From contig NZ_SNZW01000011.1 in the NCBI RefSeq assembly GCF_004364175.1, forward strand, positions 186,001 through 250,000: DNA of 64,000 nt. The letters run 5' to 3'. How positions within the stretch are numbered: the first letter of the stretch is position 1; every line of letters starts with the position of its first letter. The position numbers and the translations under genes were made by a program. The notes under the pieces are model-generated. The model ran no database searches and was not told the DNA's origin. It saw only the letters and a program-made list of their open reading frames with translations. The DNA comes from Maribacter caenipelagi. GTDB lineage: Bacteria > Bacteroidota > Bacteroidia > Flavobacteriales > Flavobacteriaceae. Shown here piece by piece: positions 26,189 through 57,534 of this stretch.

Positions 26189-26194
26189 TTTTTA

Positions 26195-26398
26195 GTTGTT
26201 CGTTGTTCGTTGTTCGTTGTTGGCATTTTGTACAAATGCATTAAACTCTAACTTCACAACATTTAATTTCTTTTTTTTACATGGATATTCATATTGAATA
26301 TTCTATTTGCAATATTTTTTAAACCAGCTTTAATTTCACTGTATTGATTGTTGAAGAAGGCTGTTACGAACAACCATCAACGAACAACCAACAACGAA
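26195..26398. repeat. pair of inverted heptamer arrays (TTCGTTG) flanking 142 bp
   Basis: At 26195-26223 three exact TTCGTTG copies plus partial units run head to tail. At 26366-26398 the opposite orientation carries five degenerate units of the same heptamer (for example CAACGAA, CAACCAA). The 142 bp between them hold no credible gene. Everything lies in the gap between the fusion gene (start of the array just after its stop) and arsS. The layout resembles the heptamer-built terminal repeats of the element at 53997-54385. Confidence 0.8.
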
Positions 26399-26400
26399 AT

Positions 26401-28945: not shown

Positions 28946-28990
28946 TCCTAACTCCTAACTCCTAACTCCTAACTCCTAACTCCTAACTCC
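28946..28990. repeat. tandem heptamer array (TCCTAAC)6.4
   Basis: Six perfect head-to-tail copies of TCCTAAC plus three further bases fill most of the 60-bp gap between the SusD stop and the symporter start. The exact identity of the units suggests recent expansion. It lies between an outer-membrane and an inner-membrane transport gene of one operon. Confidence 0.9.
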
Positions 28991-28991
28991 T

Positions 28992-50990: not shown

Positions 50991-51010
50991 TAAGAGTTTT
51001 TTTAATTTAA

Positions 51011-51223
<213 letters not shown>

Positions 51224-51241
51224 GAACGTGAAAACCCAAAG

Positions 51242-51280
51242 ACATCTTCCTGTAACGGTTGGTTACAGGAAATGTTTTTT
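51242..51280 (+). terminator. intra-operon hairpin between atpE and atpF
   Basis: Perfect 10-bp arms TTCCTGTAAC (51247-51256) and GTTACAGGAA (51262-51271), extended by ACAT/ATGT outside, are followed by six T. It has the form of an intrinsic terminator but sits inside the operon, 32 nt before atpF. Confidence 0.75.
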
Positions 51281-51311
51281 ATTTATTGATTTAGATTTAA
51301 AAGATTAGGAT

Positions 51312-51812
51312 ATGGAAGTTTTATTGAACGATTTTTCACCAGGTTTGTTTGTTGTTCAAACAATATTATTATTAGCATTAATTTTCTTAATGGTAAAATT
51401 TGCTTGGAAACCAATTTTGAATTCTTTGAATGAAAGAGAAGCTGGTATAGAAGAAGCATTGGCTGCTGCCGATAAAGCACGCACAGATATGCAGAACTTA
51501 CAAGCTGATAATGAGAAGATGCTTCAAGAAGCACGTGCTGAACGTGAGGGTATGTTGAAAGAAGCACGCGAAATCAAAGAAAAAATGATTTCTGACTCTA
51601 AAGAGCAAGCTAAGCTAGAAGGCGACAAAATGTTGAAGCAGGCACAAGCTGCAATCGAAAGCGAGAAAAAAGCTGCTGTTGCTGATATTAAAAGTCAGGT
51701 TGCAGAATTGTCTGTAGCTATTGCAGAAAAAGTTCTAAAAGAAGATTTATCTAGTAATGACAAGCAATTGAAATTGGTAGATACAATGTTGAGCGATATA
51801 AAACTTAACTAA
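51312..51812 (+). CDS. atpF: F0F1 ATP synthase subunit b
   Basis: A 166-residue peripheral-stalk subunit. One N-terminal membrane helix (about residues 11-29, 'LFVVQTILLLALIFLMVKFAW') is followed by the standard 'KPILNSLNEREAGIEEALAA' and a long alanine/glutamate-rich coiled coil. The length is typical. It is 9 nt from atpH. Confidence 0.95.
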   Translation: MEVLLNDFSPGLFVVQTILLLALIFLMVKFAWKPILNSLNEREAGIEEALAAADKARTDMQNLQADNEKMLQEARAEREGMLKEAREIKEKMISDSKEQAKLEGDKMLKQAQAAIESEKKAAVADIKSQVAELSVAIAEKVLKEDLSSNDKQLKLVDTMLSDIKLN

Positions 51813-51820
51813 AAGAAATA

Positions 51821-52360
51821 ATGAGCGAATCTAGAGCTGCATTACGTTACGCAAAGGCAATATTGGATATGGCCAAGGAAAACAAAGCCTTGGATGCTGT
51901 TGAGAAAGATATGCGTTCAATCGCCGCTACAATTTCAGGTAGTAAAGAACTTAGAGATGTACTGGCTAGTCCGGTTGTTTCTGGTTCCATGAAAAAGAAT
52001 GCCTTACTTGAAATTTTCAAGGGTAGTCATTCTATTACAGAAGGTGCTATTAATATGTTGGTAGACAACAAACGTTTAGCTATGCTGAATGAAGTTGCCT
52101 TAAAATATATTATTATTAATGAGCAATTAAAAGGTAAAGATGTAGCGTATGTTACAACTGCTGTACCTTTAGATGCTACAATGGAGAAGAAAATATTAAA
52201 GAAGGTTACTGAACTTACCGGTAATGAAGTTACCATTGAAAGTAAGGTTGACGAAAGTATTATTGGTGGTTTCATCTTAAGAGTTGGAGATTTACAATAT
52301 GATGCTAGCGTAAGTAACAAGCTTAACAATTTAAAAAGAGAATTTTCAAATAGTCTATAA
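51821..52360 (+). CDS. atpH: F0F1 ATP synthase subunit delta
   Basis: A 179-residue OSCP/delta subunit linking the peripheral stalk to F1. The N-terminus 'ESRAALRYAKAILDMAKE' and the C-terminal 'VDESIIGGFILRVGDLQYDASV' are the family signatures. Order B-E-F-H-A-G is that of the bacterial operon. Confidence 0.95.
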   Translation: MSESRAALRYAKAILDMAKENKALDAVEKDMRSIAATISGSKELRDVLASPVVSGSMKKNALLEIFKGSHSITEGAINMLVDNKRLAMLNEVALKYIIINEQLKGKDVAYVTTAVPLDATMEKKILKKVTELTGNEVTIESKVDESIIGGFILRVGDLQYDASVSNKLNNLKREFSNSL

Positions 52361-52420
52361 TAACTATATAAGGCTTCGGATGGTTACATTCATTGCCTAA
52401 TATCTTATATCTAATTAAAA

Positions 52421-53998
52421 ATGGCAGGAGTAAAAGCCGCTGAAGTATCAGCAATTTTAAAGAAACAATTATCAGGATTTGATGCTACCGCTACTTTAGA
52501 CGAAGTAGGTACTGTATTAACTGTAGGTGATGGTATCGCAAGAATCTACGGATTAGCTAATGCTCAATACGGAGAATTAGTTGAGTTCGAAGGCGGACTT
52601 GAAGGTATCGTTCTTAACCTTGAGGAAGACAACGTTGGTGTGGTTCTTTTAGGACCTTCCAAATCAGTTGGTGAGGGTGATACCGTAAAACGTACACAAC
52701 GTATTGCTTCTGTAAAAGTTGGTGAAGGTATTGTTGGTCGTGTAGTGGATACTTTAGGTAACCCTATCGATGGTAAAGGACCTATTGCCGGTGATACTTA
52801 TGAGATGCCATTAGAGCGTAAAGCTCCAGGGGTAATCTATAGAGAGCCTGTAACTGAGCCAATGCAATCTGGTATTAAAGCAATTGATGCGATGATCCCA
52901 GTTGGTAGAGGTCAAAGAGAGCTTGTTATTGGTGACCGTCAAACTGGTAAGACTACAGTTTGTATCGATACCATTCTAAACCAAAAAGAATTTTATGATG
53001 CTGGTGAGCCTGTTTACTGTATCTATGTTGCCATAGGTCAGAAAGCATCTACTGTTGCCGGTATCGCACAGGTATTGGAAGATAAAGGAGCAATGGCATA
53101 TACTACTATCGTAGCTGCAAATGCATCTGATCCAGCGCCAATGCAAGTATATGCACCATTTACTGGAGCATCTATTGGAGAATATTTCCGTGATACAGGT
53201 CGTCCTGCATTAATTATATATGATGATTTATCTAAACAAGCGGTTGCATATCGTGAGGTGTCTCTTTTATTAAGAAGACCACCGGGACGTGAGGCTTACC
53301 CAGGTGATGTTTTCTACCTACATTCTAGATTATTAGAGCGTGCAGCAAAAGTTATCAATGATGATGATATCGCAAAAGAAATGAATGATTTGCCAGAGGT
53401 ATTAAAGCCTATGGTAAAAGGTGGTGGTTCTTTAACGGCTTTACCAATTATAGAAACACAAGCGGGTGACGTTTCTGCTTATATTCCAACCAACGTAATT
53501 TCTATTACTGACGGACAGATATTTTTAGAGCAAGATTTATTCAACCAAGGTGTAAGACCGGCAATTAACGTAGGTATTTCTGTATCTCGTGTTGGTGGTA
53601 ACGCTCAGATTAAATCAATGAAGAAAGTTTCAGGTACGTTGAAACTGGATCAAGCACAGTTCCGTGAATTGGAAGCTTTTGCTAAATTTGGTTCAGATTT
53701 AGATGCAGCAACATTGAACGTTATTGAAAAAGGACGTAGAAACGTTGAAATATTAAAGCAAGCACAAAACGATCCTTATACTGTTGAAGATCAGGTTGCA
53801 ATTATCTATGCTGGTTCTAAGAACTTGTTAAGAGATGTGCCTGTTGAGAAAGTAAAAGAATTCGAACGTGATTACTTAGAGTTTTTGAACGCTAAGCACA
53901 GAGGTGTTCTTGATACATTGAAGTCTGGTAAACTAACCGATGAGGTTACAGATACATTGACTTCTGTTTGTAAAGAGCTTTCAGCAAAATATAAATAA
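52421..53998 (+). CDS. atpA: F0F1 ATP synthase subunit alpha
   Basis: A 525-residue non-catalytic nucleotide-binding subunit. Walker A is 'GDRQTGKT', with '[20 protein letters not shown]' and the arginine-finger region '[21 protein letters not shown]'. Full length. The TAA stop overlaps the first two bases of an inserted element with terminal inverted repeats. Confidence 0.98.
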
Positions 53999-54385
53999 GT
54001 TAAAAGTGCGGAGTGATGAGTTATGAGTAAATTGAATGAAAGTCCTATTAGGATAAAAAGTTTTGATTTTGCTTGTAATATCGTTTTGTACTGTGATACT
54101 TTAAAAGGAAATAAAGATTTTGAGCTTGCCTCTCAATTGTTAAGAAGCGGAACTAGTATTGGAGCTAATACTAGAGAAGCGCAACGAGGGGTTAGTAAAA
54201 AAGATTTTAAAAATAAGTTTGGAATTGCTCTAAAGGAGGCAGACGAGACAATGTATTGGTTAGATATATTGGAAGCAACTGGAAGAAATGTACCAAAGGA
54301 TATGAAAATTAAATGCGAAGAGTTAATTAGAATTTTAGTTTCAATTATTAAAAACTCATAACTCTTCATTCATAACTTTTAACTT
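53997..54385 (+). mobile_element. IVS-like element with 32-bp terminal inverted repeats between atpA and atpG
   Basis: The left end (53997-54028) and the inverted right end (54354-54385) have the same length, need no gap and match at 27 of 32 positions. Shared blocks are ACTCATAACTC and ACTTTTAACTT. The repeats are built from heptamers (AACTCAT, AACTCTT, CATTCAT, AACTTTT). The start codon of the enclosed gene lies in the left repeat and its stop codon in the right one, so the element is just the gene plus its ends. It fills the atpA-atpG gap: the left end overlaps the atpA stop and the right end stops 6 nt before atpG. In mRNA the ends would form a long stem, as do the ends of 23S rRNA intervening sequences that carry the same protein family. 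Confidence 0.75.
54023..54361 (+). CDS. four-helix bundle protein (23S rRNA IVS / Avd-like family)
   Basis: A 112-residue helical protein with 'SFDFACNIVLYCDTL', 'ELASQLLRSGTSIGANTREA' and 'KKDFKNKFGIALKEADETMY' and 'WLDIL'. These are the hallmarks of the four-helix-bundle family found in 23S rRNA intervening sequences and, more distantly, the Avd accessory protein of diversity-generating retroelements. Family members form barrel-like pentamers that bind nucleic acid; the exact role outside DGRs is unknown. It has no relation to ATP synthase and lies inside an element with terminal inverted repeats. No reverse transcriptase or template/variable repeats are nearby. Confidence 0.92.
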   Translation: MSKLNESPIRIKSFDFACNIVLYCDTLKGNKDFELASQLLRSGTSIGANTREAQRGVSKKDFKNKFGIALKEADETMYWLDILEATGRNVPKDMKIKCEELIRILVSIIKNS

Positions 54386-54391
54386 GAACAA

Positions 54392-55255
54392 ATGGCAAAT
54401 TTAAAGGAAATACGTAATAGGATTTCATCGGTTTCATCAACGATGCAGATTACCAGTGCCATGAAAATGGTATCTGCTGCGAAATTGAAAAAGGCGCAAG
54501 ATGCTATTACGGCTATGAGACCTTATGCCGATAAGCTAACTGAACTATTACAAAACTTAAGTGCAAGTTTAGAAGGTGATTCTGGAAGTGTTTATGCCGA
54601 TAATCGTGTTGTGAACAAGGTTTTAGTGGTTTCAGTTACATCTAATAGAGGTCTTTGTGGAGCTTTTAATACCAATATTTTAAAGCAATCGGTAAATCTA
54701 GCAGATAATGTTTACGCTGGTAAATCAGTTGATTTTATTGCTGTTGGTAAAAAGGCAAATGACTATTTAGGAAAACGTTTTAATGTTATCGCTAATCACA
54801 GTGGTGTTTATGATGACTTAACTTTTGATAATGTCGCTGATATTGCTGAGAGTTTAATGGAACTTTTTACTGCTGGTACATATGACCGTATTGAAATTGT
54901 GTATAACAAATTCAAAAACGCGGCAACTCAAATTGTAATGACAGAGCAATTTTTACCTATTGTTCCATTAGAGGAAGCTGAAGTAACTGCAAGTGCAGAT
55001 TATACTTTTGAACCTACGAAATTAGAAATCATTGAACAATTGATTCCTAAATCTTTGAAAACACAATTGTACAAAGGTATAAGAGATTCATTTGCTAGTG
55101 AGCACGGTGCTCGTATGACTGCCATGCACAAAGCAACAGATAACGCAACAGAAATGCGTGATCAATTGAAATTAACATACAATAAAGCAAGACAAGCAGC
55201 TATTACTAACGAGATATTAGAAATCGTTGGTGGTGCAGAAGCATTGAATAATTAA
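54392..55255 (+). CDS. atpG: F0F1 ATP synthase subunit gamma
   Basis: A 287-residue rotor subunit with the conserved ends 'LKEIRNRISSVSSTMQITSAMKMV' (split by the family's coiled coil) and 'MHKATDNATEMRDQLKLTYNKARQAAIT' near the C-terminus, both unbroken here. The ATG is 6 nt after the inserted element. atpD and atpC do not follow; in Bacteroidota they often form a separate operon. Confidence 0.97.
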   Translation: MANLKEIRNRISSVSSTMQITSAMKMVSAAKLKKAQDAITAMRPYADKLTELLQNLSASLEGDSGSVYADNRVVNKVLVVSVTSNRGLCGAFNTNILKQSVNLADNVYAGKSVDFIAVGKKANDYLGKRFNVIANHSGVYDDLTFDNVADIAESLMELFTAGTYDRIEIVYNKFKNAATQIVMTEQFLPIVPLEEAEVTASADYTFEPTKLEIIEQLIPKSLKTQLYKGIRDSFASEHGARMTAMHKATDNATEMRDQLKLTYNKARQAAITNEILEIVGGAEALNN

Positions 55256-55320
55256 TTCAACTTTATAATTGATGGCTAACGCATGTGAAGTCATTTATAG
55301 CTTGAAAATATAATGAGTTG

Positions 55321-55349
55321 AAAACCCCACCTTAAAGTGGGGTTTTTAC
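55321..55349 (+). terminator. intrinsic terminator of the atp operon
   Basis: Arms AAAACCCCAC (55321-55330) and GTGGGGTTTT (55337-55346) pair perfectly over 10 bp around CTTAAA and run into T. It lies 66 nt after the atpG stop. Confidence 0.92.
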
Positions 55350-55395
55350 TTTTAAAGCTATTAGATTCCCTTTTTTATCCGACTTTTGTCTAGAC

Positions 55396-56616
55396 ATGAA
55401 ATCGAGCAAAACCGCATTACTTTTTATTTTCATTACTATTTTAGTTGATGTGATCGGTATTGGCATCATTCTTCCTATTATTCCTGATTTGATTATGGAG
55501 TTAACGGGTGAAGGTAATCACATGGCAATAATCTACGGAATGTGGTTGACGACCGCTTTTGCCGGAATGCAGTTTTTGTTTTCTCCTGTGTTAGGCGAAA
55601 TATCCGATAGATTTGGTAGAAGACCTATATTACTTTTAGCACTTTTAGGCTTAAGTATAGATTACTTGATTCACGCTTGGGCACCAACAATCACTTGGTT
55701 GTTTCTTGGGCGTTTTTTAGCAGGAATTACAGGCGCTAGTTTTACCGTAGCATCAGCATATATAGCTGATGTAAGTACCAAAGAAAATAAAGCGAAGAAC
55801 TTTGGGTTAATCGGTGCCGCTTTCGGAATCGGATTTATTATCGGTCCTGGTATTGGAGGGTTTTTCGGTGAGATCAATATTCGACTTCCATTTTACATAG
55901 CTGCAGGCTTAACATTTGCTAACTTCCTTTTTGGATATTTCTTTGTGCCTGAATCTTTAACACCAGAGAATAGAAGACAGATTAATTTTTCTAAAATGAT
56001 TCCAGGTGTTTCTTTGTTCGCATTGAGAAACTATAAAGGTATCCTGTTATTGATATCCGCTTTTTTCTTGGCTAATCTTGCCGGTCAGGCGCTTCCATCT
56101 ACATGGTCATATTATGGTATTGAGCGATATGATTGGACTCCGAAACAAATAGGATTGTCGCTAATGGTCGTAGGCTTATTAGTTGCAATCGTACAAGGGT
56201 TTTTAGTGGGAAAGATTGTAAAGAAGTTTGGAAAGCGTAAAGTAATTACATTCGGTTTTTTGTTATGGACGGTTGGTATGTTCCTGTTTTCATTCGCCAA
56301 AGAACCGTGGATGCTATATGCGTTCTTAATTCCATATGCATTAGGCGGTATTGCAGGTCCTACGGTCCAAGGCGTAATTTCTAACCAAGTATCTGAAAAG
56401 GAGCAGGGAATTTTACAGGGATCGATTACTGGTCTAGTTAGTATTACTGCTATACTTGGACAATTCATCTTTGCGCCTGTATTTTATTATTTTATACGTC
56501 CTGAAGCGTCTATTTACTTTCCTGGCGCTCCATATGCGTTGGCAGCAGTATTTCTCTTAGCAGCATTTATTTTGGCTTCTATGGCTATAAATAGAATGAA
56601 TGTAGAGCCGGAATAA
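55396..56616 (+). CDS. MFS transporter (TetA-like subgroup)
   Basis: A 406-residue transporter with 12 hydrophobic helices. MFS motif A reads 'GEISDRFGRRPILL' and motif C-like 'GAAFGIGFIIGPGIGGFFG' follows helix 5, as in the TetA/drug:H+ antiporter group. Many Bacteroidota have chromosomal members with no known resistance role, so the substrate is not assigned. It stands alone between a terminator and the next gene. Confidence 0.88.
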   Translation: MKSSKTALLFIFITILVDVIGIGIILPIIPDLIMELTGEGNHMAIIYGMWLTTAFAGMQFLFSPVLGEISDRFGRRPILLLALLGLSIDYLIHAWAPTITWLFLGRFLAGITGASFTVASAYIADVSTKENKAKNFGLIGAAFGIGFIIGPGIGGFFGEINIRLPFYIAAGLTFANFLFGYFFVPESLTPENRRQINFSKMIPGVSLFALRNYKGILLLISAFFLANLAGQALPSTWSYYGIERYDWTPKQIGLSLMVVGLLVAIVQGFLVGKIVKKFGKRKVITFGFLLWTVGMFLFSFAKEPWMLYAFLIPYALGGIAGPTVQGVISNQVSEKEQGILQGSITGLVSITAILGQFIFAPVFYYFIRPEASIYFPGAPYALAAVFLLAAFILASMAINRMNVEPE

Positions 56617-56691
56617 TATCTTTTTTCAATTTAGGATGTAACATTATTTAATTTTTGAATCTAAAGAGCGAACAAAACAAAAACTCTTACG

Positions 56692-57534
56692 ATGAAAACT
56701 ATTAAAAATTTACTTTTCGGATTGCTTATTTTTTCGGCATTTTCAATAACTGCACAACACAACTCTTTTGAAGTGGAAGTTACTGGCAAAGGTGAACCAA
56801 TACTACTATTTCCAGGGTTTACTTGTACTGGTGAAGTATGGGACGCTACAGTATTGGAACTATCAAAAGGTTATGAATGTCACGTATTTACTTTTGCCGG
56901 TTTCGGTAATGTTCCTGCTATTGAAAAACCATGGCTACCAAAGATTAAAGAAAGTGTTATTAAATACATTTTAGAAAATAAATTGGAAAACGCTATTTTG
57001 TTGGGGCACAGTCTAGGTGGTGCATTGGCGCTTTGGATGGCTACAGAAAGTGAAACATACAAAGAGCTGATTATAGTAGATGCTTTGCCCTCAACAGGAG
57101 CATTAATGATGCCCGATTATAAAAGTGAATACATGTTGTATGATTCTCCATCTAATAAACAACTATTAGCTATGAACGATACCGATTTTGAAGCTATGAT
57201 TGTTCAAATGGCTAGTGGTATGACCAAAGAAAAGTCAAATCAACAGAAAATTCAAAATTGGATGATTCAGGCAGATAGAGAGACCTATGTCTATGGGTAT
57301 ACAGATTTATTAAAGTTAGATTTACGTGAAGATTTGGCTAAGATAAATTCACCGGTGACTATTTTGGCGGCTACAGAACCTTATGGTTTAGAAATGGCGA
57401 AATCCACTTATGACCTACAGTATAAAGCGCTTGCAGAATACACCATTGAATTTGCAAATGGCTCATCACATTTTATCATGTATGATCAATCACAGTGGTT
57501 TATAGAGAATCTTAAAAATGCGTTGAAGAACTAA
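56692..57534 (+). CDS. secreted alpha/beta hydrolase
   Basis: A 280-residue protein with a signal peptide (cleavage after 'SITAQ', about residue 22) and an alpha/beta-hydrolase fold. The nucleophile elbow is GHSLGG (S near residue 106), an oxyanion strand reads 'LLFPGFTCTGEVWD', the acid is probably in 'ILAATEPYG', and the His is in 'GSSHFIMYD'. The substrate is unknown. Its stop overlaps the sigma factor ATG by one base (TAATG), so it is co-translated with a regulatory pair. Confidence 0.88.
   Translation: MKTIKNLLFGLLIFSAFSITAQHNSFEVEVTGKGEPILLFPGFTCTGEVWDATVLELSKGYECHVFTFAGFGNVPAIEKPWLPKIKESVIKYILENKLENAILLGHSLGGALALWMATESETYKELIIVDALPSTGALMMPDYKSEYMLYDSPSNKQLLAMNDTDFEAMIVQMASGMTKEKSNQQKIQNWMIQADRETYVYGYTDLLKLDLREDLAKINSPVTILAATEPYGLEMAKSTYDLQYKALAEYTIEFANGSSHFIMYDQSQWFIENLKNALKN

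Follow-up and report, generated by a model that had tools for sequence, protein, structure and literature searches.

Among described systems, the intervening sequence (IVS) of Coxiella burnetii 23S rRNA is an insert of about 430 nt with a 28-bp stem of complementary ends and one S23p ORF, just 5′ of which stand tandem GACAGAT heptamers, and its cutting by RNase III has been demonstrated in vitro, as given in the sections of PMC4990558 on which we draw. The protein family concerned (PF05635, here IVP) is also reported from rRNA inserts of CPR bacteria in the cited part of PMC11270868, and a gene of this family lies between cmr3 and cmr2 of Pleurocapsa, where the relevant section of PMC3936711 lists it under CRISPR-Cas-associated functions. 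Avd of diversity-generating retroelements is PF05635-like in sequence and structure, according to passages of PMC10053308. Heptamers have been described separately: an excerpt of PMC3488679 reports that degenerate heptanucleotides in P6b of the cyanobacterial tRNA-Leu intron pair into a hairpin with a variable number of units, and one of PMC4679880 that direct repeats of the TAACTGA heptamer occur in Beggiatoaceae, Cyanobacteria and Bacteroidetes, mostly 5′ of start codons. Among the papers listed in searches of mainly open-access journal literature, none links non-rRNA IVP genes to heptamer ends or to a general habit of occupying operon junctions.

Here we analyze an IVP unit in a 64,000-nt stretch of the Maribacter caenipelagi genome (G000), referred to below as the window. 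The unit lies between two genes that, from their sequence, we take to be atpA and atpG, and it is made up as follows.

52421 to 53998, plus strand: atpA, the host gene 5′ of the unit (ORF list); its stop codon shares 2 nt with the left arm
53997 to 54028, plus strand: left arm, 32 nt of degenerate heptamers; pairs with the right arm at 27 of 32 positions and contains the IVP start codon
54023 to 54361, plus strand: IVP gene, coding for a PF05635/TIGR02436 four helix bundle protein of 112 aa (ORF and profile matches)
54354 to 54385, plus strand: right arm, AACTCAT-AACTCTT-CATTCAT-AACTTTT-AACTT; contains the IVP stop codon
54392 to 55255, plus strand: atpG, the host gene 3′ of the unit (ORF list)

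The sequence-only reading had described 32-nt inverted ends matching at 27 of 32 positions, enclosing one gene that starts in the left arm and stops in the right, in a unit that overlaps the atpA stop codon and ends 6 nt before atpG; a repeat search, a recount and the ORF list bear out each of these statements at exactly the positions given. The arms are 84 % complementary and 325 nt apart, and in the whole 64-kb window the next best pair of 32-mers at the same spacing matches at no more than 22 of 32 positions. When the RNA of positions 53985-54395 is folded, the minimum free energy structure pairs the two arms with each other at −100.8 kcal/mol, compared with −72.8 ± 4.6 for 100 dinucleotide shuffles (z −6.0). 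Each arm is a tandem series of the heptamer AACTCAT and degenerate variants of it, inverted between left and right, and neither arm is a fixed terminal repeat. The IVP is the sole plus-strand ORF of at least 60 aa in the unit. Its assignment to the four-helix-bundle family of rRNA IVSs is confirmed by matches to PF05635 (E 9e-20, 71.3 bits against a cut-off of 33.8) and TIGR02436 (E 1e-26, 93 bits against a cut-off of 24); its computed pI is 9.0, and its relatives of solved structure are 2RLD (E 7e-36) and 2GSC (E 3e-4), with five chains each.

The unit thus has complementary ends enclosing an IVP ORF, the IVS-like anatomy that the earlier reading had proposed, and it shares with the Coxiella insert, as described in the sections of PMC4990558 cited, a protein of the same family, complementary ends around one ORF, and heptamers. 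It differs in lying outside any rRNA gene, in an intercistronic position where the host transcript would be an operon mRNA, and in that its cutting by RNase III is something we infer. It resembles the cmr3-cmr2 case of Pleurocapsa in sitting between neighboring operon genes; unlike the CRISPR-Cas association drawn in PMC3936711, in the cited section of which heptamer arms go unmentioned, our survey points to placement between cistrons as a general habit. Like the P6b heptamers, the atp arms would form a hairpin in the transcript; the P6b hairpin, however, is inside a tRNA-Leu intron, and the passages of PMC3488679 used here mention no IVP ORF. The TAACTGA arrays are likewise intergenic heptamers with an overlapping range of host groups, but they are direct repeats, and the text of PMC4679880 uses neither the term S23 nor the term four helix.

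We consider the atp unit to be, probably, a relative of the 23S rRNA IVS that resides between cistrons and is tolerated because, through the RNA stem of its ends, it can be excised from a polycistronic mRNA or insulated within it. The unit is codirectional with the atp genes and presumably lies within one polycistronic transcript, where the arms would form a stem of some 30 bp that encloses the IVP cistron. Cleavage of this stem by RNase III or another double-strand RNase could then separate the atpA and atpG messages and release that of the IVP, a step suggested by the anatomy and by the in vitro result on the Coxiella insert. Its site between a stop and a start codon would make the unit cheap for the host, and it may be kept as a passenger or because it uncouples the expression of atpA and atpG, two options on which conflicting hints come from the selection acting on the protein and from its loss in most congeners. 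More speculatively, the basic IVP might bind the heptamer stem, as RNA or as DNA.

The unit is a long-term occupant of the atp junction, with repeated loss. An IVP lies between atpA and atpG in 15 of the best 80 of 560 loci confirmed among GTDB candidates, in carriers that include Flagellimonas, Croceitalea, Maribacter, Aequorivita, Salinimicrobium, Kordia and Crocinitomicaceae, and in six of 20 IVP-rich genomes of the family, one of which (G039) is the Salinimicrobium catena genome of locus L078 and is counted once. Together with G000 and its congener G011 this amounts to at least 22 genomes in Flavobacteriaceae and Crocinitomicaceae. In a tree of 115 IVPs (including the best 80 of 560), 22 atp rows from 21 genomes fall on one side of a branch with an SH-aLRT of 84, the tree being a quick one with few columns, hence of modest support, and excluding the two-piece gene of L295. 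Purifying selection acts on the atp-site IVP: of 18 pairs, 15 give a dN/dS of 0.035-0.138, dS being saturated in three and high in some others. The gene is apparently broken in L077, L105 and L295. Arm sequences vary among species, AACTCAT-like in most and AATTCAT in Kordia, and 13 of the 15 atp-site units from the best 80 of 560 pass the inverted-repeat test described below (L070 and L073 fail), so that the arms mostly keep pairing despite sequence change.

Within the genus, atpG was located in 35 of 36 genomes and the preceding sequence was readable in 34, of which two (G000 and G011) have an IVP at the junction; in its place most congeners have a heptamer hairpin that contains no ORF. These two are non-sisters in a tree of atpA-atpG DNA, and their dS is 0.19 for the IVP, against 0.85 for atpG and 0.61 for the last 60 codons of atpA. 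The similar stretch takes in roughly two thirds of the unit, on its 3′ side, and reaches 60-120 nt into atpG (about 1200-1600 of L031), an island that fits homologous recombination between species. By eye, the junctions of G002 and G008 look like deletion remnants of an IVP unit.

Heptamer ends are not peculiar to the atp site. We assembled 108 IVP loci, comprising 28 non-atp loci of the same genus and the best 80 of the 560 candidates, a choice that weights the sample to Bacteroidota; the profile used for the collection scan was built from six IVPs, an alignment of 12 being too diverse. Scored against 200 mononucleotide shuffles, the inverted repeat reaches p ≤ 0.005 at 89 of the 108 loci (87 on a rerun) and fails at 19, while p ≤ 0.05 is reached at 96; an excess of matches at lag 7 is found in one or both arms of 66 loci at p ≤ 0.01, and 43 loci show it in both arms at p ≤ 0.05. 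The controls were 214 small codirectional genes taken from 98 stretches of the same family; four of them have such an inverted repeat (p ≤ 0.005), and the lag-7 excess appears in at least one arm of six and in both arms of two. Beside IVPs the frequency of lag-7 matches is 0.40-0.45, with further peaks at lags 14 and 21 on either side of the ORF in all three groups, compared with 0.26-0.27 in the flanks and 0.28-0.31 in shuffles. Counted by distinct site, the majority of loci have the inverted repeat at 36 of 47 sites, and the best period of 46 sites is 7 at 35, 8 at seven, 6 at two and another value at two; all of these figures include the best 80 of 560. Heptamer ends are the usual anatomy of the IVP family in this sample. 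A code by which related IVPs carry related heptamers is unsupported across the 47 sites, including those of the best 80 of 560 (Mantel rho 0.03, 687 of 2000 permutations being as high); in contrast, at single sites two IVP types mostly bring two repeat types.

The sequence-only reading was also right that such units reside in protein operons. IVP genes are codirectional with both neighbors at 101 of 107 loci (a set including the best 80 of 560), against a background, from the same crude ORF caller, of 1016 of 1547 genes overall and, among small genes, 214 of 308. At least 12 sites are common to two or more loci, several of them across genera: atpA-atpG, ruvC-hemW, an RND-type gene before an outer membrane efflux gene, two junctions in histidine genes, the junction before a recJ-type gene, mvaD-GHMP kinase, hmgA-hppD, two CoA-transferase subunits and others, and metH-metH also houses units. 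Ten flanking proteins were scanned with Pfam and agree with these names; the names of hppD, of the RND gene and of the second CoA-transferase subunit are assignments by eye. Of the 35 single-locus IVP sites in the set with the best 80 of 560, 20 were scanned and none of these lies in rRNA, and the tie to the rRNA IVS thus rests on protein family, end anatomy and the literature. IVP inserts occur within many bacterial operons, between their genes, and so beyond the rRNA genes from which the family was originally described.

The arms could instead be an RNA hairpin with a function of its own between two cistrons of the atp operon, and the IVP an ordinary small gene in its loop. Thirty congeneric atpA-atpG junctions without the ORF were examined for this signal (G003 and G026 stand outside the set), and hairpin and lag-7 excess are both present at p ≤ 0.01 in 17 and at least one of them in 22, while at the separate atpD-atpC junction the heptamer periodicity is significant (p ≤ 0.01) in 44 of 52 cases and a hairpin in 15, with many repeat types. 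Neither sign is seen, however, in eight of the 30, among them the junctions of G020, G022 and G033, whose spacers are short by eye, and heptamer arms occur at most of the 47 unrelated IVP sites (including the best 80 of 560), set against four of 214 controls. We judge a dedicated atp hairpin with an ordinary small gene in its loop to be unlikely. As to the IVS-like reading, 17 aligned ORF-less atp hairpins have 19 predicted pairs in common, and changes on both sides at four of these speak for it, while their absence from most of the 19 speaks against it. Hairpins of other types occupy the atp junction in G027, L266, L288, L290, L294 and L299 (by eye), and this occurrence of unrelated hairpins, a further point against the IVS-like reading, suggests that a hairpin may be tolerated there and not selected. 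In L288, L294, L299 and G027 (L053) the junction has a palindrome family of the form CTCCCC...GGGGAG...TTAGG, and that of G026 (L039) has a lipoprotein-like gene of about 190 aa between atpA and a heptamer hairpin 5′ of atpG.

Two further sites offer replicates of the IVS-like unit. At ruvC-hemW, nine of 30 junctions hold an IVP 73-100 % like that of L004, with AATTAGC-type repeats, 14 hold one 25-34 % like it, mostly with CAGT-type repeats (G003 differs), and seven have no IVP and a junction of 11-70 nt; across L366-L395, then, a single site is taken by one or the other of two dissimilar IVP types within one genus, mostly along with a different repeat. At metH-metH, nine of 30 junctions carry an IVP 79-100 % like that of G000, with AACGAAC repeats, eight carry one 53-61 % like it, mostly with CCAACAA repeats, and 13 have none, eight of these being short, clean junctions of 35-41 nt. 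In the IVP-free metH junctions of G005, G011, G014, G019 and G026, heptamers and apparently the last IVP codons remain, and we read these five as scars of IVP loss. From the two repeat types and the metH scars, arms and ORF seem to come as one unit, lost by deletion, and the unlike IVPs with unlike repeats at one site suggest that whole units colonize junctions elsewhere. In the G000 unit at metH (L256, C9:92609-92920; loci of this junction also include L396-L425), the downstream MetH has its first residues encoded, in frame, by the right heptamer arm, and its start codon shares bases with the stop codon of the IVP gene.

That the 389-bp unit is a transposon-like element with 32-bp terminal inverted repeats, recently jumped into the atp operon, would account for its compactness and inverted ends, for up to 15 IVP genes per genome within the family, for the two unlike IVPs that occupy ruvC-hemW and metH in different species, mostly with repeat types of their own, for unit-free junctions of 11-41 nt and for the recurrence of its heptamer in an ORF-less atpD-atpC hairpin. 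Unit-free short junctions do exist at atp, ruvC-hemW and metH, in relatives too distant to define a target duplication. Several observations speak against such a jump: the atp IVP occurs in at least 22 genomes on one side of a branch; the unit's sole plus-strand ORF of at least 60 aa is the IVP; its ends are heptamer arrays that differ by species and site and so share no terminus; and the G000-G011 island extends into atpG, as homologous recombination leaves it, and not to the ends of the unit. Nor did further copies, a search for which the sequence-only reading had suggested, appear: a protein search of G000 has a single match, the atp-site IVP itself, and the second PF05635 gene, located at the metH site by a Pfam model search, is distant and has different repeats. 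With one copy in the genome, purifying selection, confinement to one branch side and the island into atpG, recent transposition of the atp copy is largely refuted, and a transposon-like origin of this kind appears quite improbable. Of the mobile IVS-type element in the earlier reading, family, anatomy and protein-operon setting therefore stand, and a recent move does not. The opposite picture, in which all relatives keep the gene between diverged or missing end repeats and other copies do not occur, agrees with the data in part: two of 34 congeneric junctions hold the gene, the end repeats diverge in sequence but mostly keep their pairing, and the heptamer of the unit recurs at another place of G000, in the ORF-less hairpin at atpD-atpC.

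Heptamers without an IVP are found within the window at two places.

26189 to 26400, no strand assigned: GTTGTTC / ACGAACA, a pair of heptamers in inverted orientation that encloses no IVP gene and lies between two genes both read on the minus strand
28946 to 28991, no strand assigned: perfect direct heptamer array, TCCTAAC repeated 6.6 times, without an ORF, between two codirectional minus-strand genes

The heptamer of the first is that of the second IVP of G000, at metH, and the TCCTAAC array recurs in G000 at C5:181484, C6:12908 and C6:17403. Arrays of the AACTC heptamer (up to two mismatches) occur at five further places of G000, reversed control patterns having 0 and 1 matches, and one of the five is an AACTCAT hairpin without ORF between atpD and atpC (C6:219512-219572; about 7504-7585 of L234). 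At the same junction, G007 (L316) lacks one heptamer in each arm relative to L307, a symmetrical change that speaks for the IVS-like reading. Strict period-7 arrays number 0 in 20-kb stretches of 20 IVP-negative genomes and seven (in six genomes) in 20 IVP-rich ones, or four (in four genomes) after removal of atp-site IVP arms; with a looser threshold the counts are 2 and 11, the latter falling to 5 after arm removal. Within the genus, two of 36 genomes lack PF05635, G020 and G033, which are near relatives and so represent one event; their atpA-atpG junctions are short and free of hairpins, and 400 kb of G033 hold no period-7 array, compared with three in G008 and four in G000. IVP-negative genomes thus have fewer strict arrays, on evidence that becomes thin once the IVPs' own arms are removed. 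At atpD-atpC, the IVP-negative G020, G033, G063, G081 and G103 pass the hairpin or the lag-7 test (G063 both), which argues that an IVP in the same genome is unnecessary for such a junction to persist, and at atpA-atpG the junctions of two further genomes without an IVP (L272, L281) contain, by eye, a hairpin of heptamers. The IVP as cause of the heptamer arrays in its own genome was rejected, because the counts shrink without IVP arms and IVP-negative genomes keep heptamer junctions.

It is very improbable that the IVP at atpA-atpG acts in trans, co-regulating the atpD-atpC operon through the AACTCAT hairpin, since matching heptamers at the two atp loci are true of few genomes (G000, G011, Flagellimonas pacifica L068, Kordia L076 as AATTCAT, and partially G066) and false of more, the types differing by eye in L066, L067, L070, L073, L075, G038, G121 and G039, being ambiguous by eye in L069 and G143, and AACTCAT standing at atpD-atpC without an atp IVP in G031, G007, G013, G063 and G107. 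A self-splicing intron was rejected, Rfam having no match at the gathering score in positions 51000-57000 and hence none to a group I or II intron model. A reverse transcriptase partner, with which Avd works according to the passages of PMC10053308 cited, was likewise rejected: both neighbors of the unit are atp genes and no reverse transcriptase adjoins it, both RVT_1 matches of G000 fall on other contigs (C4 and C5) than the unit (C1), and PF00078 has no match in six of 12 genomes tried, five of which have IVPs, among them G039, G007 and G008 with many.

Extending the IVS-like reading of the atp unit beyond this site, we put forward, as a tentative proposal more doubtful than not, that IVP units constitute a widespread class of RNA-tolerated mobile elements living mainly in operon gaps, with the rRNA IVS as one niche, renewable heptamer arrays as ends, and ORF-less offspring or relics, to which the so far unexplained heptamer repeats and hairpins found in Bacteroidota and Cyanobacteria would belong. 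If so, a family known for decades from rRNA oddities would gain a general habitat in operon junctions, inverted heptamer arrays would be its diagnostic anatomy, and the cutting or insulating of polycistronic mRNA its testable function. The same proposal could account for the presence of IVP genes in operons, those of cas genes included, to which they have no functional connection, and would offer an origin for the heptamer repeats separately described in cyanobacteria and sulfur bacteria.

Two minor observations concern the wider distribution of these features. In two Verrucomicrobiota loci (L090 and L109) an IVP lies between codirectional genes, 5′ of a gene that is aminotransferase-like by eye, with a significant inverted repeat, which by its arrangement is the same habit outside Bacteroidota. 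Contig C1 of G000 starts within a CAATTAG heptamer array (positions 1-99 of L216), and draft assemblies may break at arrays of this kind.
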